A stretch of DNA of 49,617 nucleotides from Planctomycetaceae bacterium (lineage in GTDB: Bacteria; Planctomycetota; SZUA-567), in assembly GCA_021205245.1 (NCBI GenBank), contig JAJPXZ010000135.1, positions 1-49,617 on the forward strand. The letters run 5' to 3'. Position numbers and translations under genes: made by a program. Below are positions 30,182-47,209 of this stretch, piece after piece. Below the pieces are notes generated by a model. That model saw only the letters and a list, made by a program, of their open reading frames with translations, was not told the DNA's origin and did not search any database. The stretch's first letter is position 1; the number at the start of each line of letters is the position of its first letter.

Positions 30182-31021
30182 TTAAGAATTGTGCTTAACA
30201 GGAGACACTGTTTTTTTGATTACACAAGTGTCAATAAACTTCCATCCGAAATCGGTGATCAATACTACTTTCCGAATAATTTTTGCCTTCATATTTGGAT
30301 TAGCAGCTTCGACCTTTTCTATAGTGGACTTCACCATTAGGTCATCGCTAAGGGGTACATAAACATTCTTGTCCGTATAGCTCTTTCCATATGGAATTTC
30401 AAGGATACCTAAGCGGCATAGATTGTTGAGGTAGGCTGGAGTTAATTCAGGATAGGTGCACTGTGAGGCAACACCAAAATGCGAGTAATTCGTCAAAATT
30501 GTTTGTGCTCCGCCCTCTTCATTTTGCACCTCTAAGTCTATTAGAGGGCGGACCTGAGATTTTACAAGATTATCGAGAAGCTTAGCTTCATCGGGTGTCA
30601 TTTGTTTGATAATTTCAACAAAGCTTGGGAAAGCTTCCTTTGATGAATCGGAATTCATAGAGGATGTCAGGAGGTTTAGGAAAAGCTCTCGTAATTCTAT
30701 CTGATGTCCCGTATACCGCAATGCCTCCAATGTCGGAACCGCGACGTTGGGGCTTGGGGTAATAATTTTATCGGGGGCTACGCTTTTTAGACGGTTAGGA
30801 AGTTCGTCTAACACGTGCTCTTTTATTTTGTCATATCCCCAAACAAGGCCACGGATTGGTTCAAGTGCTACATTGATAGCCTTGGCCACTACTTCGAGGC
30901 CCTTACCGATTTCTTTTGCTGCTGGTTGAATAGCATCTTGGTAAATAGGAACGGCTTTTACCAGATCTGTCACGGCGTTGATTGTGTCATCCACCTTATT
31001 GTTACATTCTTCATCCGGCAT
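30182..31021 (-). CDS. Abi-alpha / DUF4393 abortive-infection protein
   Basis: A 279-residue protein of the DUF4393 family, also called Abi-alpha. The family start is clear: IYQDAIQPAAKEIGKGLEVV then IRGLVWGYDKIKEHV, followed by a helical middle (LRELFLNLLTSSMNSD) and a C-terminal winged-helix-like part. Members are linked to phage exclusion, but the mechanism is not established. Its G+C content (35-45% in lines counted) is far below the neighbours, and it lies next to a tRNA gene, so it was probably acquired. AGGAAA precedes the ATG. It is a single gene; no toxin or partner gene is seen on either side. Confidence 0.8.
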   Translation of the reverse strand: MPDEECNNKVDDTINAVTDLVKAVPIYQDAIQPAAKEIGKGLEVVAKAINVALEPIRGLVWGYDKIKEHVLDELPNRLKSVAPDKIITPSPNVAVPTLEALRYTGHQIELRELFLNLLTSSMNSDSSKEAFPSFVEIIKQMTPDEAKLLDNLVKSQVRPLIDLEVQNEEGGAQTILTNYSHFGVASQCTYPELTPAYLNNLCRLGILEIPYGKSYTDKNVYVPLSDDLMVKSTIEKVEAANPNMKAKIIRKVVLITDFGWKFIDTCVIKKTVSPVKHNS

Positions 31022-31224: not shown

Positions 31225-31301
31225 TGGCACGCCAGAAGGGATTCGAACCCCTGACCGCCGGATTAGAAATCCGGTGCTCTATCCAACTGAGCTACTGGCG
31301 T
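31225..31301 (-). tRNA. tRNA-Arg (anticodon UCU)
   Basis: The complete cloverleaf can be drawn on the minus strand. The acceptor stem is ACGCCAG / CTGGCGT with all seven pairs, the D-arm starts GCTC, and the anticodon stem CCGGA / TCCGG holds the loop TTTCTAA, giving anticodon UCU (Arg, AGA/AGG). The T-loop is TTCGAAT and the 3' CCA is encoded. AGA/AGG codons are rare in such G+C-rich genes. The adjacent AT-rich gene suggests the locus has been an insertion site. Confidence 0.96.
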
Positions 31302-37342: not shown

Positions 37343-37372
37343 GGGCGCTCCCTTGCGGAGCGCCCTTTTTTT
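37343..37372 (+). terminator. Terminator after tatA
   Basis: GGGCGCTCC (37343-37351) pairs perfectly with GGAGCGCCC (37357-37365), and seven T follow. It separates host genes from the phage block. Confidence 0.93.
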
Positions 37373-37509
37373 GATCCATACCCCGCTCATTAAACTTTCC
37401 ACCCCTCCATATATTTTTCTCCCGAGCGCGTGAACGGCGTTAGATTCAAAAAGCATGAAGGACGGCGATGGCGATGCCTGTCCATAACCCACGAAGAGGA
37501 GAAAACCAC

Positions 37510-37896
37510 ATGTCGATGGAACTGCGTCTGGAAGCGAGAAAACGCGAGCGGGAACGCGAACTGCTGCGAAAACGCGAAGCAGAGTTCGCGGGCGACCTCC
37601 GTGCCGTGGCGGCGCACGCGGAGGGAAAACGGTTGCTGCGTTGGTTGCTGGCCCAGGGCGAACTGTTCAGCCTCGACTATCTGCCCGGTACCGCCGGCGC
37701 GTACCAGGCGGGCAAAAAGGCGACAGCCCTTAGACTGTGGCATCTTCTTCGTGATCTCCTCGCCCCGAACGCCTTCGCCGAAATCGCCCTGGCGGCCGGC
37801 AGAGGGGACTCCGACCCCGAACCGGTACCGGACGAGCGGGACGAGGATTTTTATCAGTCGAATCACCATGGAGAAAACGATGCAAGACAATGCTGA
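37510..37896 (+). CDS. Podovirus Bbp19-like protein
   Basis: A 128-residue protein. The first third is a charged helix (RKRERERELLRKREAEF); the rest (LLRWLLAQGELFSLDYLPGT then AYQAGKKATALRLWHLL) resembles the small Bbp19-type proteins that podoviruses encode just before the scaffold gene. Their function is unknown to me. The start at 37510 is supported by GAGGAG upstream. The 3' end overlaps the scaffold gene by 17 bases. It is the first gene of the phage block; the portal gene usually upstream is absent. Confidence 0.55.
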   Translation: MSMELRLEARKRERERELLRKREAEFAGDLRAVAAHAEGKRLLRWLLAQGELFSLDYLPGTAGAYQAGKKATALRLWHLLRDLLAPNAFAEIALAAGRGDSDPEPVPDERDEDFYQSNHHGENDARQC

Positions 37897-38539
37897 ACCG
37901 GAAGAAGCGCTTCTTTCGGACAAGGGGGCGGAGAGCGATGCGGCAGGACGCGATCCCCTCGACGCCGTCCTGGCCGTAGAGGAACCCAGGCGCGAAGCCG
38001 AAGCCAATACCAATGCCAATGACGGTACTGAAGCAGATCAAAAAGACAACGCTGCGGCTACGAAAAGCGAAGACGCCGACGATGGGTACGGCGAGTTCGA
38101 ATGGCCGGACGGGTATGTGGCCGATCCGGCCGCTTTGGCCAAGTTCGTGCCGCTGGCCCGCCGTCTCGGCCTTCCCAAGGAAGGCGCGCAGGAACTGGCC
38201 AAACTCTACGCCGAACTCGACCATGAGCGGCAGGACAACCAGGCCCGCTTTATCGCCAAAAACAACGCCGAATGGCTGCGGGAAATCCATTCCCACCCCG
38301 AGTTCGGCGGCGGGAACCTGCAGCGGACAGGCGAAGCGGTGGCGTCGATGCTGCGCCGCTACGGCACGCCGCTCCTCACGGCGCAGATCCGTCAAATGAA
38401 CGTACAGAACTGGCCGGAGATGTTCTATTTTCTCGCCCGGGTTTCCCAGGCGGTTTCGGAAGACTGTTCACCCTCCGGCAGCGGCGGCGACCGTCCGGCC
38501 AAATCGACGGCGGAACTTCTTTTCCCCGGCCTGAAGTAA
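37880..38539 (+). CDS. Phage scaffold-like protein
   Basis: A 219-residue acidic protein. Residues 1-75 are highly charged and low-complexity (Asn/Asp/Glu/Ala), and the middle is helical (LAKLYAELDHERQDNQARF). Position directly before the major capsid gene, composition and length are all typical of capsid scaffolding proteins, which guide shell assembly and leave. GGAG seven bases before the ATG at 37880 supports this start over 37868. Identity rests on context more than on motif. Confidence 0.6.
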   Translation: MQDNAEPEEALLSDKGAESDAAGRDPLDAVLAVEEPRREAEANTNANDGTEADQKDNAAATKSEDADDGYGEFEWPDGYVADPAALAKFVPLARRLGLPKEGAQELAKLYAELDHERQDNQARFIAKNNAEWLREIHSHPEFGGGNLQRTGEAVASMLRRYGTPLLTAQIRQMNVQNWPEMFYFLARVSQAVSEDCSPSGSGGDRPAKSTAELLFPGLK

Positions 38540-38572
38540 CGACAACCATCATTCACGATTGAAGGAGAATGT

Positions 38573-39589
38573 ATGTCCACAGTAGGAATGCGCAGCCTCA
38601 CCCTGGCGGATTATGCCAAACGCCTCGGCCCCGACAAGCAGATCGGCAAAGTCATGGAGATCCTCGAGCAGTCGAACGAGGTGCTGGACGATGCCATGTT
38701 CCTCGAGGCCAACAACGTCACCACCCACCGCACCGTCATCCGCACCGGTTTGCCGGAAAGCTACTGGCGCACCCTCAATCGGGGCGTGCCGAAATCGAAG
38801 AGCAACACCACGCAGATAGACGATCAGATCGGCATGCTCGAAACCTGGTCGGTGGTCGACTCCGCCCTGGCGGAACTGAACGGCCAGCAGGCCGATTTCC
38901 TCCTTTCGGAAGAACGGGCCTTCCTGGAGTCAATGAACCAGGAGGTGGCGAAGACCATCTTTTATGGCGATCTGGCCAGCAATGCCGCCGCCTTCTCGGG
39001 GCTTTCCTCGCGGTTCTGCACCCTCGATCCCACGATCGGCAGTTCCGCCAACATCATTGATGCCGGCGGCACCGGTCCCAACTGCACCTCTGCCTGGCTG
39101 TGCGTCTGGGGCGACTTGTCCCTGCACATGATTTACCCCAAAGGCACCACTTCGGGCCTGCGCCGCGAGTTCCTCGGCCGCTGCCCGGTGGTGGACGAGA
39201 ACGCCAACGAGTTTATGGGCTACAAGACCAATTATTCCTGGTCCCTCGGCCTGTGCCTGCGTGACTGGCGCTATGTGGTGCGCATCGCCAACATCGACAC
39301 GGCGCAGTTGGATGCGCTCATGAACGGCGGCGCGGCCGAAGCGAGCGGCAACGCGCTCATCCGCTGCATGATCAAGGCGCACAACCTTATCCCCAACATC
39401 CGTCTCGGCCGTCCCGCCTGGTACATGAACCGGAGCGTCAAGACGCTTCTGGACCTGATGGCGGCGGAAAAATCCAACGTCAACCTGACCATGGCCAATT
39501 TCGCCGGCGAGTCGGTCACCGCCTTCAAAGGCGTGCCGATCCGTCAAGTCGACGCGCTCGTCAACAACGAGTCCGCTATCGTCAAGTAA
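38573..39589 (+). CDS. Phage major capsid protein (BPP-1/epsilon15-type)
   Basis: A 338-residue capsid protein, close to the length known for the epsilon15 shell protein. Recognisable segments are MRSLTLADYAKRLGPDKQIG at the start, LEANNVTTHRTVIRTGLPE, then LAELNGQQADFLLSEE with YGDLASNAAAFSGLSSRF, shared by HK97-fold capsids of BPP-1-like and epsilon15-like podoviruses. The frame is complete and undamaged. AAGGAGAA precedes the ATG. It would form the icosahedral shell. Confidence 0.85.
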   Translation: MSTVGMRSLTLADYAKRLGPDKQIGKVMEILEQSNEVLDDAMFLEANNVTTHRTVIRTGLPESYWRTLNRGVPKSKSNTTQIDDQIGMLETWSVVDSALAELNGQQADFLLSEERAFLESMNQEVAKTIFYGDLASNAAAFSGLSSRFCTLDPTIGSSANIIDAGGTGPNCTSAWLCVWGDLSLHMIYPKGTTSGLRREFLGRCPVVDENANEFMGYKTNYSWSLGLCLRDWRYVVRIANIDTAQLDALMNGGAAEASGNALIRCMIKAHNLIPNIRLGRPAWYMNRSVKTLLDLMAAEKSNVNLTMANFAGESVTAFKGVPIRQVDALVNNESAIVK

Positions 39590-39627
39590 CGAAACGGCCC
39601 ATTCCCTACTCAAAAAGGAGCAATGTA

Positions 39628-40002
39628 ATGTGGGACAACGAAACCACCTTTTCCAATCGCCAGACCCTGGCGGACGGCCCTTCCGAAACAGCCGTCGATG
39701 TCGGCCCCGACGACATCGGCCTGGGCGAGCCCGTCTACCTGCAGGTGTCTTTGTCGAACGGCGCAAGCGGCGCGCTTGAAGTAACGGTCGAGACCGGCGA
39801 CGCACCTGATCTCAGTGACGCGGTCACCCTGGTCACCTACCATGTCGCCGAATCCGTTCTCAAGCATGGCGGCACCGTCCTCGCCGCGCCTGTGCCGACC
39901 GGTTGCCGCCGCTATCTGCGGCTGCAGTACGACGGGGCAAGCGGCGGCACCGTTACCGCCGGTCTGGTCCAGGGCGCGCAGACGTCCGGCATGAATAGGT
40001 AA
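39628..40002 (+). CDS. Capsid cement protein (Bbp16-like)
   Basis: A 124-residue, beta-rich protein with segments VDVGPDDIGLGEPVYLQVSLS and ALEVTVETGDAPDLSDAVTL, matching the Bbp16 family of cement proteins that lock capsid protein of BPP-1-type phages. It lies directly after the capsid gene as in those phages. AAGGAG precedes the ATG. A strong terminator follows. Confidence 0.75.
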   Translation: MWDNETTFSNRQTLADGPSETAVDVGPDDIGLGEPVYLQVSLSNGASGALEVTVETGDAPDLSDAVTLVTYHVAESVLKHGGTVLAAPVPTGCRRYLRLQYDGASGGTVTAGLVQGAQTSGMNR

Positions 40003-40034
40003 TTGGCGGGACTTCTCTTCAACTCCTTCTCCTG

Positions 40035-40075
40035 CGGCCGCTCCGAGCCACGCTCCATTCGGGGCGGCCGTTTTT
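40035..40075 (+). terminator. Terminator between head and tail genes
   Basis: A 12-pair stem (40035-40046 with 40059-40070, one G-T pair) is followed by TTTTT. It sits 33 bases after the cement gene, a place where phage T7 also has its terminator (behind the capsid gene), so capsid genes would be expressed above the tail genes. Confidence 0.85.
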
Positions 40076-40091
40076 CAAAAAGGAAAATCAC

Positions 40092-40691
40092 GTGGCTTCA
40101 AAAATGGAAATCATCAATCTGGCCCTGGCCAATCTGTCGCGGGAACCGATTCAAAGCCTGTCCGAACCCAACCCCGAGGCGTTCCAACTGCGGGTGCATT
40201 GGGAGACGGCACTGGCGTCGGTGCTCCGCGATCACCCGTGGGGCTTTGCCATGCGCCGAAAACCACTGGCCCCGTTTCAGGAATCGCCCATCGGCTTCGC
40301 CTATGCCTACGGCTATCCCGGCGACTGCATCCAGGCGCGGCGGGTGCTGCCGTGCCGGGGCGGATCGGCGCGGAACGGCCCCGCCTACCCGTTCGAAATC
40401 GGCCGCAGTCTGGACGGTCGGCACCGCGCCATCCTGACCGACCTCCCCGATGCGGCGCTCGAATACACAACCATTCAGGTGCCGTGCGAGGAGTTCGATC
40501 CGCAATTCGTCGGCGCGCTGGCGTGGCGGCTGGCGGCGGAGATCAGCCTGGCTGTCCACGCCGACCCGCAGTCCCACGCCGCAGCCATCAGCACCTATTC
40601 GATGCAGTTGCAACAGGCCAAGGCACTGGACATGCGCGAATCATCGTCGCCGCGCTTGCCTGACGGCGATTTTCTCCGCTCCCGATATTGA
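40092..40691 (+). CDS. Tail tubular protein A-like (T7 gp11 type)
   Basis: A 199-residue protein, very near the 196 of T7 gp11. The N-terminus KMEIINLALANLSREPIQSL and HWETALASVLRDHPWGFAMRR are characteristic of this adaptor family, which forms the ring between portal and nozzle. The start is GTG at 40092 with AAAGGA upstream; an ATG four codons later is possible. In a complete virion it needs a portal, which is not encoded here. Confidence 0.75.
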   Translation: MASKMEIINLALANLSREPIQSLSEPNPEAFQLRVHWETALASVLRDHPWGFAMRRKPLAPFQESPIGFAYAYGYPGDCIQARRVLPCRGGSARNGPAYPFEIGRSLDGRHRAILTDLPDAALEYTTIQVPCEEFDPQFVGALAWRLAAEISLAVHADPQSHAAAISTYSMQLQQAKALDMRESSSPRLPDGDFLRSRY

Positions 40692-40715
40692 TGCGATTTG
40701 TGAAGGATTACATCC

Positions 40716-43148
40716 ATGAGCAAGGTTACCCTTACCCAGTTCAGCTTCAATCGGGGCGAACTCGACCCCGCCCTGCACGGCAGGAGCGACTGGAAATACT
40801 ATTACTCCGGCGCGCAAAAGCTCCGTAACCTCATCGCGCGGCCACAGGGCGGGGCGACGAAACGAGGCGGATTGCGCCTGATCGCACCGGCACTGGACGA
40901 TAGCCGCGCCTCCCACCTCATCCCTTTCCGTTTTTCGGTGGAGCAATCATATATGCTCGAGTTCGCCGACCGGCGGATGCGGGTCATCCATAACGGTGGC
41001 GTGGTCGTTTTCCCGGAAGGGCACGAGCGGGCGGGGCAGGAGGTGGTGGTCGAGACGCCGTACCCGGCCGACGTTCTGCCGCTTCTCAATCACACCCAGA
41101 CAGCGGACGTGATGGTCTTTACCCATCCCGGCCATCCGCCCCGACGGCTGACCAGGCACGACCATCACGACTGGCGCTTTTCCCGCCTGCTAGACAACGC
41201 CCGCACCGCCACGCCGGAAAACCTCCGCATCACCAAATCGGGCGGCGACGGGTCGCGGTATGTCGTCACCGCTTTTGCTGAAATGGTAGGCGAATCATCG
41301 CCGTCCGATGCGGTCGTCGCCGACAACTCGGATCTGATATCAGCCCCGCCATCGAGCCTCTCGTACGAAGAACTCTACGCATGGTTGCGGGAACGCGACT
41401 ATTCGTACATGCCGGAAACATCGGCTTTCCATACGATGAGCACGGCCGAACTGCTGCAATTTCTGATCGATTGCGGCTATACCGGTGGCGGCGGCTACAC
41501 CACCCCGGACGGCAGCTATTGGCCCTGTTCGCGGCCGGGCGAAGCCCGAACCTTCGAACTGTGGTGGTGGGACAACAATAACTCAAACCTGATCAGCGAA
41601 TGCCTCTACGCCTGCGATCAGGGCTGGGCCGGGTCAGTCCGGGCCGAACTCGAGAGCAAGATCGACGAGTATGTCGCCGCCTACAACGCCGGACTCAGGG
41701 GCGACAAAATCACCGATCTTGCATGGGACGCGGTGGACGGCGCGAGCGGCTACCGCGTCTACCGAAAAGGGACGTTTGACGATGCCTACCGCCTGATTGG
41801 CGACACCACCGCAACCGCTTTCCGGGACGATACCTTCCCGACCGGGTCGACCAGCCTGCCGGAAGAGGCCGACGCCTTCGAAGGCGTCGACGATTATCCG
41901 GGCGTGTGCGCTTTTTTCGAACAACGTCTCATCCTCGCCCGCACCAACAATAAGCCCACCACCTTCTGGGGGTCGGACACGGGCGCGTACAACGCCTTCA
42001 CCAAGCACTCGCCCATCCAGGATACAGATTGCTACGAGTTCACCCTGGCCAGCGGCGAGATGAACGAGATCCATTGGATTGTTCCCCTCAACGATCTCCT
42101 CCTCGGCACCGCAGGCGGCGAGTGGAAGGCCGGGGGCGGCGGCTACGCCATCACCCCGTCCAATATCAACGCCCGGGTGCAAAGCTGGTACGGCTGCTCG
42201 GCATTGTCGCCGGTGGTGTCGGGGCGGACGGTGATTTTTGCGGGGCGGGGCAGGCGGACGATTCGCTCGTTCTCCTATTCGCTCGAAGCCGACGGCTATT
42301 CGGGCAAGGACCTCACCCTCTTCGCCAGCCACCTGTTTTCGGGCCGGCGCATCGCCGCCATGTGCCACCAGCGCGAGCCCGACGGCATCGTTTGGGTGGT
42401 GATGTCGGATGGGGCATTGTTGTCGTGCACCTACGCGCCCGAGGAAGAGGTGGTGGCGTGGTCGCGGCACGAGACGGCAGGCCGATTCGAAGCCTGCGCC
42501 GCCTTGCCTGATCACGAGGGCGGGGACGAAGTCTATTTCTGCGTCGAGCGCGTGGTCGGCGGCACGCCGCGCCGTTTTATCGAACGGCTGGAAGACGCCG
42601 CCGACCGGTTTAGCAATGAGACGGATGGTCTGTTCCTGGACTGCGGCCTTAGTTACCGAGGCGCGCCGGTCGGCAGGGTCACCGGGCTGCAGCACCTCGA
42701 AGGCGAGCAGGTCGCGTGCCTGGCTGACGGCAGCGTGTTCCCCGGCTTGACGGTGGCGAATGGTGCGGTCGAGCTGCCGGACGGGTTTACCGCCGGAATT
42801 GTCCACGTCGGTCTGCCCTATGCGGCCGAACTGGTCACGATGGAGTTGGAGCCGGAGGCGAAGGAGACAATCCGCAACCGCGCCCGCTTCGCCGTCGCCG
42901 CCACAGTGCGCTTCGCTGGCAGCCGCGATTGTCTGTACAGCCATTCCGACGGTGGGCTGTCGGAAATGAAGTTCAGGACATCGGAGTTGCCCGGCCGTCC
43001 GGTGCGGTTGTTTTCCGGCGACAAGCATGTGGCGTTTTCATCGCCGCCGGGCGCACGGACGACGCGGCTGCGGTTCGTCTCCGAAACACCCACCCCCTTC
43101 ACCCTCTTGGGCATAGTCGCGGAGGCAAGCTGTGGACAACCCGCCTGA
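40716..43148 (+). CDS. Tail nozzle protein (T7 gp12-like)
   Basis: An 810-residue protein, close to T7 gp12 (794). The start LTQFSFNRGELDPALHGRSD followed by YYYSGAQKLRNLIARPQGG is typical of the nozzle/stabilisation proteins in prophages of this type. Residues about 330-375 contain a fibronectin III-like segment (ITDLAWDAVDGASGYRVYRK). The frame is fully open. GAAGGA precedes the ATG. It would form the short tail nozzle under the adaptor ring. Confidence 0.75.
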   Translation: MSKVTLTQFSFNRGELDPALHGRSDWKYYYSGAQKLRNLIARPQGGATKRGGLRLIAPALDDSRASHLIPFRFSVEQSYMLEFADRRMRVIHNGGVVVFPEGHERAGQEVVVETPYPADVLPLLNHTQTADVMVFTHPGHPPRRLTRHDHHDWRFSRLLDNARTATPENLRITKSGGDGSRYVVTAFAEMVGESSPSDAVVADNSDLISAPPSSLSYEELYAWLRERDYSYMPETSAFHTMSTAELLQFLIDCGYTGGGGYTTPDGSYWPCSRPGEARTFELWWWDNNNSNLISECLYACDQGWAGSVRAELESKIDEYVAAYNAGLRGDKITDLAWDAVDGASGYRVYRKGTFDDAYRLIGDTTATAFRDDTFPTGSTSLPEEADAFEGVDDYPGVCAFFEQRLILARTNNKPTTFWGSDTGAYNAFTKHSPIQDTDCYEFTLASGEMNEIHWIVPLNDLLLGTAGGEWKAGGGGYAITPSNINARVQSWYGCSALSPVVSGRTVIFAGRGRRTIRSFSYSLEADGYSGKDLTLFASHLFSGRRIAAMCHQREPDGIVWVVMSDGALLSCTYAPEEEVVAWSRHETAGRFEACAALPDHEGGDEVYFCVERVVGGTPRRFIERLEDAADRFSNETDGLFLDCGLSYRGAPVGRVTGLQHLEGEQVACLADGSVFPGLTVANGAVELPDGFTAGIVHVGLPYAAELVTMELEPEAKETIRNRARFAVAATVRFAGSRDCLYSHSDGGLSEMKFRTSELPGRPVRLFSGDKHVAFSSPPGARTTRLRFVSETPTPFTLLGIVAEASCGQPA

Positions 43149-43623
43149 CCGCCTCATTCCCGCCACTCCAGAACACGCCCGAATCCTGGCGGCGGCCCTC
43201 TCAGACGACCACCGGCGCGAATTGACCGCTACAGGCGGTATGTCGCCCCGGGTGGCACTCGAAGTGTCGCTGGCGAGTTCAGTTGAAGCGTACACCTACG
43301 TGGACCCGGACGGCGAGCCGCTGTTCATGATGGGGGTGGAGGCGGCGAGTCCGCTGACCGGCGCGGCGCTGGTGTGGATGCTTGCGACCGGCGCGGCCGG
43401 AGGCCACCCCCGGGGCATCCTCCGCGCGGCCCGCTGGGGACTGGAACGTGCCTTCGCCGTCACCGGTGCGGCGTCGGTGGAGCAGTACATTCCGGTCTGG
43501 TACCGGACCGGCCTTCAATTTGTCCACCGTCTAAGTTTTTACATCCTGCCGGATCAGGCGAGCGGACGCGACGGCGCGCGCCTTTGCCGCGCCATACGGT
43601 ATGCACGAAAGGAAACACCATAA
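43132..43623 (+). CDS. Internal virion protein, T7 gp13-like (GNAT-like fold)
   Basis: A 163-residue protein of the gp13/DUF2833 type. The pattern IPATPEHARILAAALSDDHRRE, an ALEVSLASS helix, DGEPLFMMGVE, and TGAALVWMLAT gives the family's acetyltransferase-like outline. The start is GTG at 43132, overlapping the previous gene by 17 bases, with GGAGG upstream. The stop overlaps the next ATG by one base (TAATG). In T7, gp13 is needed for particle maturation. Confidence 0.7.
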   Translation: MDNPPDRLIPATPEHARILAAALSDDHRRELTATGGMSPRVALEVSLASSVEAYTYVDPDGEPLFMMGVEAASPLTGAALVWMLATGAAGGHPRGILRAARWGLERAFAVTGAASVEQYIPVWYRTGLQFVHRLSFYILPDQASGRDGARLCRAIRYARKETP

Positions 43624-44108
43624 TGGGAGCATTGACCACTGTCATGAACGCCGCGTCGATCACCATGGGCGCGGCGCAAAATTACCAGAACGCGCAATAC
43701 CAGAGCGCGGCGGCGAAGTTGAACGCCGACGTGCTGGAGACCCAGGCGGCACGCAAGGAGCTTGAGGCGGAGGAGGCCTTGGCAATCGGCCGCCTTAATC
43801 AGGCCGAGCATGTCGTCGAGGGGCGTTTGGATATCGCCAGCCAGACCGCGACCTATGCCGCCTCCGGCGTCAAGGTGAATGAAGGCTCGGCTGTGGACGT
43901 CGCCGCCGACAAGGCTGCCTGGAATGAGTACGGGCGGCAAAAGCTCCAATACGGGGCCGAACTCGAAAGCTGGGGCCTCCGTTATGACGCCGCCCTGCTT
44001 CGGCAGGAGGCGTCCAACGTCCGCGCCGGTGCGGGGAGCGGTTCCAATCTCGCCGCCGTTATCGGTACGGGAACAAAGCTCGCCGGCCTTTTGGAAACAG
44101 GGGATTGA
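43623..44108 (+). CDS. Internal virion protein, T7 gp14-like
   Basis: A 161-residue, alanine-rich helical protein with the family's YAASGVKVNEGSAVDVAADK segment and flanking hydrophobic, Gly-rich ends (AASITMGAAQNYQN; LAAVIGTGTKLAGLL). In T7, gp14 is ejected and inserts in the outer membrane. The larger ejection proteins gp15 and gp16 do not follow; the fibre gene does. The start overlaps the previous stop by one base. Confidence 0.65.
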   Translation: MGALTTVMNAASITMGAAQNYQNAQYQSAAAKLNADVLETQAARKELEAEEALAIGRLNQAEHVVEGRLDIASQTATYAASGVKVNEGSAVDVAADKAAWNEYGRQKLQYGAELESWGLRYDAALLRQEASNVRAGAGSGSNLAAVIGTGTKLAGLLETGD

Positions 44109-44111
44109 TTC

Positions 44112-46505
44112 ATGATAAACAAGACAGCATGCGTCGCCAGTTACAGCGGCGGCGAAAACCGATCGGTCTTTCCGATACCGTTCCAGTTCCAGGAACCGGG
44201 CCATATCCACGCACGTATCCGCGACGGCGCGGGTCGTGACACCGTCCTCACCGTCGGCATCGATTACGCCGTCGTCAAGCTGACAGACGCGAGCGGCGAA
44301 CTCACCCTGCTGGGCCGGGTCCTGCCGTCGGGCTGCAGCCTCACCATTAGCCGTCGGTTGCCGCTCACGCAGGAGATCCTGTTCCATAACCAGGGGCCGA
44401 ACTCGCCCCAGGCGATGGAGGAGGCGGTGGACAAACTCACCATGATCACCCAGCAATTGCAGGCTGACATGGAAGAGGCGGCGGCAGAGACCATGGCCAC
44501 GACGGCGGCGGAAATCGCCCAGATACGGGGCGAGACAGCCGCTGTCCAGCAAGCTCTCAACGCCACCGCGCCAAAGCTCCACCAGCACCAGTCCGCCGAT
44601 GTCACCGATTTCGCGGTCCGGCTTGCCGGCAAGGCTGAACAGGGCCACGAGCACGCGATGAGCGACGTGACCGGCCTGGTGGGGCAATTGTCAACAAAGG
44701 CGGAGAAGGGCCATCGCCATTCCGCCTCGGAGGTCGACTCCCTACCCTCACTGTTGTCGGCAAAGGCCGATGTTGCCCACAGCCACCACATCGGCACTAT
44801 CGCCGGATTGGAAGACGGCCTGTCAGCAAAGGCGAACCGCTTCCACACCCACGCGTGGGACGACGTCGACGGCCTCGACGCAGGCCTGGCGGGGAAGGCG
44901 GCTGTCAGTCACCGCCACGCCCCAACCGAGGTGGAGGGCCTAGCGTCGCTCCTCGACGCCAAGCTGGATGCCGACGACCCTCGACTGAACAACGCCACCG
45001 CCGGCCCGCACGCTGCGTCGCACGCGAAAGATGGAGAGGATCCGCTCACGCCCGAAGCCATCGGCGCGCTGCCGGCTCCTCCAGGCAACGGCAAGACCTA
45101 CCTCGCCTCCGGCGGCGGCTGGGTCGAGTATCTGCCGCCCAGCGGGGGTGAGGAGCCGGGCGAAGGGGTCGGCACCATGGACCACGCCCAGCTCCTCAAC
45201 CGGGACGCAGCCGACCAGCACCCACAGGCCGCTATCCAGAATTTGACCCGCGACCTCGGCGCAATTCAGGCATCACTGAATGCGCTGGCTGACGTCGATA
45301 CCGCCTTGTCGTCGTCCATCGCGGACAAGGCGGACCGCGCCTCCCTGCCCGGACTCGCCAACGCCACAGCAGACGGTCTCCTCGCCAAGGAGGACAAAAC
45401 CAAGCTGGACTCGCTCCCGACCAGGATAGCCGCCCTCCCGGCTGGAGGCGACGACGGCGACGCCCTTGTCAAAGGCGGCAACGGGCTGGCGTGGCGCGGC
45501 GTGGCCGAGCGGGCCAATACCCTGCCGCTGATGGCTCCCTACCAGAAAGGTGTGGCGCGGTTGTCCGAGGGGATGGGGCTGGAATTGGACGGCGGCGGCG
45601 CGCTCCGCGTCAGCGACGATAACCTGGTGAGCAAGGCCAACCTCGAAGGCAGATTTTCCGCACTCGACGGGAAGGTGGTGTCGGCCGAACACCGGCTCGA
45701 TGGTCTCGACACCACGGTCGGCGGCTACGACACCCGACTGGGTAATCATGAATCCCGAATCGGCGCGGCCGAGACCGGTTTGTCCGGCCACGAATCGCGC
45801 CTCGGCGGCCACGACACCCGCTTGGGCAGCCTCGATACGGCGGTAGGGGCACTCAACGGCGTGGTATCGGGATTGGGTGCACTGTCGCGAACTGCCGACG
45901 CGCCCCGGGACGGCAAGCCGTATCTGCGGCGTGACGAGGGCTGGCACGAGTATGTCGCCCCCTCGGGTGGCGGCGGCGCGAGCGCTATCGTCGGGGAGAT
46001 TCGTTTCCTCCCCTTCAGGAAAACCGAACTGCCGACGGGCTGGTATTTCTGCAACGGCGACCGCTACTCCGTCGCAGGCGCTCAGGGTGCCGTCCTGAAC
46101 AGTTTGTCAGCCACGATGAAGGCGGATTGGGGCATCGCCGCTTCCGGCGGGACCATCAACCTGCCCAGCCTTATTGCCAACGGCGGCTATTTTATGCGCG
46201 CCGCCAACAATGCCGACCGCTTTCCCGGCAGCGCCCAAGGCGACGCTATCCGCAACATCGTCGGGTCGTTCGCCTTTTCCGAGCAGATCGGTATGGTTCC
46301 GCAAGGAACGAGCATCGGCACCGGCATCCTCTCCGGTGCGCTATGGACCGGCGAAGCGACCAAATCCTACGGGCTGTACCGGGCCAGCCTGAGTGGCGGC
46401 AAAGGCTCCGACCTGCATTTCGACGCCTCCCGCTGCGTCCCCGTGGCTGATGAAGTGCGCCCGCATAACATCGGCATGACCCCTGCCATCTACCTGGGAG
46501 TATAA
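44112..46505 (+). CDS. Tail fibre protein with T7-type anchor and repeats
   Basis: A 797-residue fibre. Residues 1-120 match the T7 gp17 N-terminal anchor (RSVFPIPFQFQEPGHIH..., then GCSLTISRRLPLTQEILFHNQ). Residues about 155-300 hold five to six imperfect repeats of about 22 residues of the form GHxH-x4-DV-x-GL-x3-L-x-KA. A second repeat zone near 515-590 has a heptad-like pattern (YDTRLGNHESRIG, GHDTRLGSLD), probably a trimeric coil. The C-terminus (GEIRFLPF, ELPTGWYFCNGD, TINLPSLIANGGYFMRA) is tail-collar-like and probably binds a receptor. The frame is intact. Confidence 0.85.
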   Translation: MINKTACVASYSGGENRSVFPIPFQFQEPGHIHARIRDGAGRDTVLTVGIDYAVVKLTDASGELTLLGRVLPSGCSLTISRRLPLTQEILFHNQGPNSPQAMEEAVDKLTMITQQLQADMEEAAAETMATTAAEIAQIRGETAAVQQALNATAPKLHQHQSADVTDFAVRLAGKAEQGHEHAMSDVTGLVGQLSTKAEKGHRHSASEVDSLPSLLSAKADVAHSHHIGTIAGLEDGLSAKANRFHTHAWDDVDGLDAGLAGKAAVSHRHAPTEVEGLASLLDAKLDADDPRLNNATAGPHAASHAKDGEDPLTPEAIGALPAPPGNGKTYLASGGGWVEYLPPSGGEEPGEGVGTMDHAQLLNRDAADQHPQAAIQNLTRDLGAIQASLNALADVDTALSSSIADKADRASLPGLANATADGLLAKEDKTKLDSLPTRIAALPAGGDDGDALVKGGNGLAWRGVAERANTLPLMAPYQKGVARLSEGMGLELDGGGALRVSDDNLVSKANLEGRFSALDGKVVSAEHRLDGLDTTVGGYDTRLGNHESRIGAAETGLSGHESRLGGHDTRLGSLDTAVGALNGVVSGLGALSRTADAPRDGKPYLRRDEGWHEYVAPSGGGGASAIVGEIRFLPFRKTELPTGWYFCNGDRYSVAGAQGAVLNSLSATMKADWGIAASGGTINLPSLIANGGYFMRAANNADRFPGSAQGDAIRNIVGSFAFSEQIGMVPQGTSIGTGILSGALWTGEATKSYGLYRASLSGGKGSDLHFDASRCVPVADEVRPHNIGMTPAIYLGV

Positions 46506-46507
46506 CC

Positions 46508-47209
46508 ATGGATAATCATTATTATGACGACAACGGCATCTACACCTGCTCCGCCCCGGCCAACGAGGGATCGCTCCCTCCGGCCGGAGCGGTCCGCGAA
46601 TCGCCTCCGTCCCGGCCGGGCTACTGGCCCAAACGGACAGCCGCCAACGACGGCTGGGAACTGGTGGAGGATCACCGGGGAGAACGCGGCTGGCTCGCGG
46701 GCGTCCCGGCGGTGGTACGCGAACTCGGGCCACTGCCCGAGGGCTGGTCCTCCACCCCGCCTCCCCAGGCGAATGAGGACGCCTGCCGCGACAAGCGCCA
46801 AGCCGCCTTTATAGAACAGACCGACCCCATCCGCGACCAAGCGCTGACCTATTGGGCCGAGGCCCAGGGCTGGCGGTTGGCAGGGGACGAGGCTAAATCG
46901 CAGATCGCCCTGGATAAATGCACTCGCCTCCTCACCGATTACGTCACCGCAAAGGAGGCAATCCGCGCCGCCATACGGAAGGAGGCGGCAGAAGAATCGG
47001 TCCAGGCTGATGCAGGTGGAGAAAGCGAAAAGGGCGGTGATGTGGTCAACCCCGCCCCCGCGTCCCTCTACCTCACGGCATCCGGCACCTACCATGCGCC
47101 GGGTTGCCGTTATACCGCCGGGGCGGGCGAGTGGCTCCAGCCATCGGCGGTACGTAGCCGCCGGCCCACTGCCAAGGCGTGCGGGCTGTGCCGTCCCGGG
47201 GCGGTGTAG
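46508..47209 (+). CDS. Fibre-associated protein with C-terminal Cys/His motif
   Basis: A 233-residue protein directly behind the fibre gene (two bases after its stop, GGAG before the ATG). The first half resembles tail-fibre assembly proteins (NDGWELVEDHRGERGWLAG). Residues about 185-233 (YLTASGTYHAPGCRY, then TAKACGLCRPG) have the HxxxC...CxxC pattern of Ada-like zinc-binding modules. I infer a fibre chaperone or decoration protein. It is the last gene of the phage block; no lysis gene follows. Confidence 0.55.
   Translation: MDNHYYDDNGIYTCSAPANEGSLPPAGAVRESPPSRPGYWPKRTAANDGWELVEDHRGERGWLAGVPAVVRELGPLPEGWSSTPPPQANEDACRDKRQAAFIEQTDPIRDQALTYWAEAQGWRLAGDEAKSQIALDKCTRLLTDYVTAKEAIRAAIRKEAAEESVQADAGGESEKGGDVVNPAPASLYLTASGTYHAPGCRYTAGAGEWLQPSAVRSRRPTAKACGLCRPGAV

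Follow-up and report, generated by a model that had tools for sequence, protein, structure and literature searches.

Well-studied gene transfer agents (GTAs) are few. The one of Rhodobacter capsulatus (RcGTA, Rhodogtaviriformidae) is derived from a tailed phage and vertically inherited; its genes occupy five or more loci, those for tail fibres, head spikes and lysis being outside the main cluster, and the direct regulator GafA acts at several promoters (PMC7947584; PMC9638019). Its head morphogenesis and packaging genes are held by one head-tail cluster (PMC7947584). FpGTA of Faecalibacterium prausnitzii, which a 2026 description presents as the first podovirus-like GTA-like element, is a candidate podovirus-type GTA whose structural genes and lysis genes occupy different operons; there are two operons in total, TerS, TerL, portal, scaffold and capsid being encoded in one of them, and particles have been seen (PMC12946183).

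The window (the whole stretch of 49,617 nucleotides analysed here) is contig C153 of G000, a draft genome of 4.32 Mb in 203 contigs. The comparison set comprises seven species of the genus (G000-G006), all of them drafts, 76-88% complete, so that ejection proteins, small terminase and endolysin can be called absent only provisionally. The system identified in four of these species resembles RcGTA in its tailed-phage origin, vertical inheritance and multiple loci. It differs in having terminase-portal and capsid genes on different contigs, in its podovirus type (epsilon15/BPP-1, with a GP7 capsid) and in its host lineage, which is labelled Planctomycetota; its best families are of the GP7 and Bbp types. 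A text search of open-access literature returned no account of a GTA from Planctomycetota. With FpGTA it shares the podovirus type and the location of structural and putative lysis genes in separate operons, but its loci number three or more and have a motif in common, its TerL, portal, scaffold and capsid genes are not in one operon, and its particle is a predicted one. Homology to tailed-phage genes, as used to recognize GTAs (PMC9662315), is observed in the profile matches, particle formation being a prediction.

The head-tail block and its setting

The block at 37510-47209 comprises ten open frames, which the profile matches confirm as particle genes of an epsilon15/BPP-1 type podovirus. 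Their order is that of Escherichia phage phiV10 p08-p17 plus fibre, in agreement with the podovirus order proposed in the initial annotation. The start of the scaffold gene was corrected to about 37880. The features are:

37343..37365, + strand, terminator-like hairpin closing the tatA transcript (9-pair stem and T run)
37428..37444, + strand, shared motif GCGTGAACGGCGTTAGA (putative regulatory) upstream of the block, found ahead of terL and the lysis-type cassette as well
37510..37896, + strand, Bbp19-like protein, first operon gene (phrog_528 2.7e-6; PF25181 weak; RBS aagaggag)
37880..38539, + strand, scaffold/protease (phrog_458 8e-29)
38573..39589, + strand, major capsid protein, GP7 type (PF20911 4.5e-120; dN/dS 0.05)
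39628..40002, + strand, Bbp16-like capsid cement/decoration protein (PF21190 1.3e-9)
40092..40691, + strand, tail adaptor (phrog_394 1.4e-46; dN/dS 0.009)
40716..43148, + strand, tail nozzle (phrog_376 2e-171; dN/dS 0.09)
43132..43623, + strand, internal virion protein 1 (phrog_308 9e-17)
43623..44108, + strand, internal virion protein 2, IVP2 (phrog_418 1e-16)
44112..46505, + strand, tail fibre (PF12789 repeats; phage fibre N-terminus)
46508..47209, + strand, tail-fibre assembly-like protein (phrog_105 5e-10)

The order bbp19-scaffold-capsid-bbp16-adaptor-nozzle-internal proteins is shared with phiV10 and Bordetella phage BPP-1 (Uetakevirus / Rauchvirus). The capsid is 48% identical to that of phiV10 (49% for the best phage hit), and BPP-1 genes align in trees with those of the present system. 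In these phages, however, terminase and portal genes are contiguous with those for ejection, lysis, replication and integration, whereas in the present system such genes are dispersed or absent: profile matches identified no portal, terminase, integrase or lysis gene within the block, as initially annotated, and the loci of G000 and G006 hold head-tail genes only. The supposed retention of all shell and tail genes did not hold, since the block lacks the large ejection proteins. In phiV10 these are p18-p20, located after the small internal proteins; in complete relatives such genes separate the small internal proteins from the fibre, and counterparts were identified in prophages C150, C63 and C94. 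The fibre partner (46508-47209) ends in a YHxxxCxY...CxxC domain that is also the C-terminus of a short fibre protein of G003 (L023, 4563-5297).

One flank of the block is formed by the host genes leuS, a CAT family gene, SBP_bac_5 (oppA-like) and tatA, the latter closed by the hairpin, and the other by a PD40/TolB-like host gene, in line with the host genes on both sides given in the initial annotation. The absence of flanking direct repeats, first noted by eye, stands: the flanks share no exact direct repeat of at least 10 bp. Elsewhere in the window, an Abi_alpha gene (PF14337, abortive infection) was identified at 30182-31021, near a tRNA-Arg (tct) at 31225-31301.

The head-tail block is present in four of the seven species (G000, G006, G001 and G003). 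In G006 the ten genes lie between the same host genes as in G000, with 77-99% identity for the block and 88-96% for the flanking proteins. In G001 and G003 a homologous block is found at a different site, adjoining an apparent blaI-blaR1 pair; it starts with bbp19, with no portal or terminase ahead, and in G003 it spans two contigs that overlap by 55 identical bases. A misjoined contig and a recent deletion of a prophage at this site were both rejected: the sister species G006 has identical junctions and no complete prophage at the locus, and a second site without portal or terminase exists in G001 and G003. The tatA-capsid-tolB synteny proposed initially as a check thus leaves the reading standing.

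Broken frames were identified in three of the four blocks: a single-base deletion in the nozzle of G006, a C-run insertion in the scaffold of G003, and an indel in the nozzle of G001, after which the contig continues into an ABC-transporter gene, either a truncation or a chimeric assembly. Coverage of the contigs bearing the broken nozzle and scaffold frames is low (5-9x), at which real decay in single species is possible. A comparable indel is found in a host gene, the tolB-like gene of G003.

The packaging locus and its co-inheritance

Portal and terminase profiles built from complete prophages were used to search the genomes. The relevant portal family is PF12236; no P22-type portal (PF16510) was identified in G000. 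Contig C38 of G000 carries terL, the gene of a 114-aa protein and the portal, and no other phage gene; on one side of this trio a host gene encodes a protein of about 1400 residues, and on the other lies a host transporter gene. The trio follows the same large host gene in G006, G003 and G001, and in G002, G004 and G005 this host gene is present with terL and portal absent at that site. The orphan terL-portal locus is therefore found in exactly the four block-bearing species out of seven, on a contig separate from the capsid in all four. The initial annotation had proposed that the portal and terminase of a GTA-like or container system could lie elsewhere; this dedicated locus, together with the shared upstream motif and further loci described below, supports it.

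G000 contains four capsids (C150, C63, C94 and C153) and four portals (C150, C160, C17 and C38). C63 with C160 and C94 with C17 pair as prophages split at contig ends, one part ending at the scaffold and the other at bbp19, a pairing also backed by matching gene similarity to relatives. With the other three capsids thus matched to portals, the block (C153) and C38 are the pair left without partners. In all four species TerL retains its Walker A and Walker B motifs and its nuclease aspartates. No small terminase gene was identified beside terL or elsewhere for the split system in these drafts. An apparent frameshift in the portal of G001 is a scaffold gap of N.

In the capsid, nozzle and portal trees the sequences of the split system form one clade at 100%, apart from the prophages, with the topology ((G000,G006),(G001,G003)). 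Two host-protein trees show the identical split, the three species lacking the system falling outside, and key nodes in all of these trees have 99-100% support. The TerL tree did not resolve the split system as one clade. The match of the capsid, nozzle and portal trees to the host trees corresponds to the mostly vertical inheritance, or co-diversification, expected of GTAs (PMC9662315).

Selection on the block, suggested initially from its clean gene content, is supported by dN/dS values far below 1 (Nei-Gojobori, G000-G006 pair). These were 0.009 for the adaptor, 0.026 for the portal, 0.05 for the capsid, 0.07 for IVP2, 0.09 for the nozzle, 0.14 for the fibre, 0.16 for the scaffold, 0.20 for TerL, 0.27 for the Bbp19-like protein, 0.29 for the fibre partner and 0.32 for internal protein 1; the genes of the lysis-type cassette gave 0.13-0.14. 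Values for host genes were 0.049 (leuS), 0.047 (oppA) and 0.059 (tolB-like), so that constraint on capsid, adaptor and portal (0.01-0.05) is on a par with that on leucyl-tRNA synthetase. The dS is about 0.5 and mostly host-like, being lower for the capsid (0.35) and the Bbp19-like gene (0.23).

At least three distinct prophages of the same podovirus group (C150, C63+C160 and C94+C17) are found in G000 besides the dispersed system. The complete podoviral prophages of the genus (G000:C150 and G003:C323) share with it the virion gene families and the order terL-small-portal-bbp19-scaffold-capsid; they differ in falling in separate clades, in having large ejection proteins and in lacking the motif ahead of packaging and head genes. 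The search for large ejection proteins yielded none for the split system, all profile hits in G000 being located in prophages. Stray relatives of giant ejection proteins, with no capsid or portal nearby, are found in G006 (C118), G005 (C204) and G004 (C313); a third locus for large ejection proteins was rejected, G000 having prophage copies only and these stray contigs neither block nor motif, and contig C351 of G003 is the tail end of a C150-type prophage. A scan of IMG/VR with capsid or portal as query, which detects close relatives only, returned no intact phage relatives.

The shared motif and the loci behind it

Alignment of the regions upstream of the head-tail and terL operons identified a 17-bp motif, GCGTGAACGSSGNTANA, which precedes the first gene of each operon by about 50-100 bp in all four species; the only mismatch, a single one, is at the G006 block. 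The motif can also be written GCGTGAACG..TA, with the central part CGTGAACG. The 4.3 Mb of G000 contain three exact sites where base composition predicts 0.05, and searching with the reversed pattern gave no exact site in any of the seven genomes. Allowing one mismatch raised the number to 6-10 sites per genome, the reversed pattern then giving 0-1. In the complete prophages neither packaging nor head genes are preceded by the motif; an ancestral phage promoter was rejected as its origin, the matches in C63 and C323 being located at the end of a giant gene. No regulator of the motif was identified.

The third exact site of G000 (C12, with an ortholog in G006) lies ahead of three genes homologous to consecutive post-fibre genes of prophages. 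No profile match names any of the three; their membrane-protein-like N-termini, their position and their homology to unannotated prophage genes suggest a cassette of holin-type lysis genes. The head-tail, packaging and lysis-cassette loci thus lie apart, each between host genes, which is the arrangement of fully endogenized GTAs, often in multiple loci (PMC9662315).

Further motif-linked loci were identified beyond these three. IVP2 is missing from the block of G003 and was found intact at a separate locus behind the motif (153 aa, 55% identical to the block copy of G000 and 36-45% to prophage copies); G001 has it at the corresponding separate place, with a dN/dS of 0.11 between the two copies. 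Long tail fibres are motif-led in G003 and G001, and so is a gene of about 500 codons in G000 and G001 (28-30% identical), which as a guess could be a candidate replacement for the ejection proteins. A site next to hisA holds the lysis-type cassette in G000 (C12, L147) and in G006, and in G001 a motif-led 523-aa gene lies near hisA (C404, L172); the system's modules may have relocated among the same host sites. An orthologous motif-led gene in G001 (C444, L151) and G003 (C17, L149) encodes a protein with the pattern MAET(L/I).SGP.YPSW..PPMVYGVPYS and no phage profile match, possibly an extra virion or fibre-tip protein. Two motif-led short proteins of G006 (C131 and C10; L177, L178) look related (MRYKRQKEYY.., MHFKRTRHY..). 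Finally, a multi-copy element of about 500 bp starts with the motif in G000 (C1:23408 and C195:10447) and in G006 (C120, C240 and C247; L179-L183 for the five copies); it contains the palindrome GGTTCGGCCGAACC, and two contigs end inside it.

Readings of the scattered genes

The block is probably the head-tail locus of a domesticated, scattered and co-expressed particle system, most likely a GTA derived from an epsilon15/BPP-1-type podovirus. The shared motif GCGTGAACG..TA would be a promoter or operator at which one host regulator would act, turning on the head-tail locus, the packaging locus (C38), the putative lysis cassette (C12) and the further single-gene loci. Their products would assemble into a short-tailed particle, which TerL, with no small terminase gene adjoining, would fill with chromosomal DNA without site preference or pac site; the cell would then lyse, by means of the putative cassette of the third locus, and the particle would carry the DNA to kin. 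That terL has no small terminase gene next to it is no more than a hint of random packaging, and self-packaging of the system as one molecule is implausible with its genes on different contigs.

These genes could instead be the scattered remains of one old prophage, rearranged and slowly decaying with no present function. Genomes rich in related intact prophages, the loss of the large ejection genes and the frame-breaking indels in three of the four species speak for this, but dN/dS as low as that of leuS over a dS of about 0.5, ten intact frames in G000, one motif preceding separate loci and an IVP2 that was relocated yet kept, intact and motif-led in G003, make it unlikely. The block by itself has no packaging gene and the large DNA-ejection proteins are missing, as in a container or protein-delivery system whose shell and tail would carry protein and not DNA; such a system is quite improbable with terminase and portal at a dedicated co-inherited locus, under strong constraint, with catalytic motifs intact and the same motif upstream.

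The missing large proteins are encoded by at least three related prophages in G000, and the parts could then be a phage-interference or satellite-like device, poisoning or hitching on resident podoviral prophages that supply ejection proteins and a replicated genome. This is very unlikely, the loci having no replication or integration gene but their own portal, TerL and putative lysis genes, and G001 keeping the system though no related complete prophage was found in it. Very little probability is also given to a polydnavirus-like arrangement, with dispersed virion genes acting in trans under one regulator and with directed packaging, where the motif-led element of about 500 bp would be preferred cargo, a packaging signal or a regulatory RNA.

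The favoured reading is that of a candidate GTA, which would work like the known ones and be independently derived. If true, a podovirus has here been domesticated independently, with its packaging motor split off from the head genes and its scattered parts marked by a sequence tag. Such a tag, by which the missing IVP2 of G003 was recovered, turns the question 'dead prophage or GTA?' into a genome-wide search, and a head-tail block that lacks terminase and portal may be a working system and not debris.
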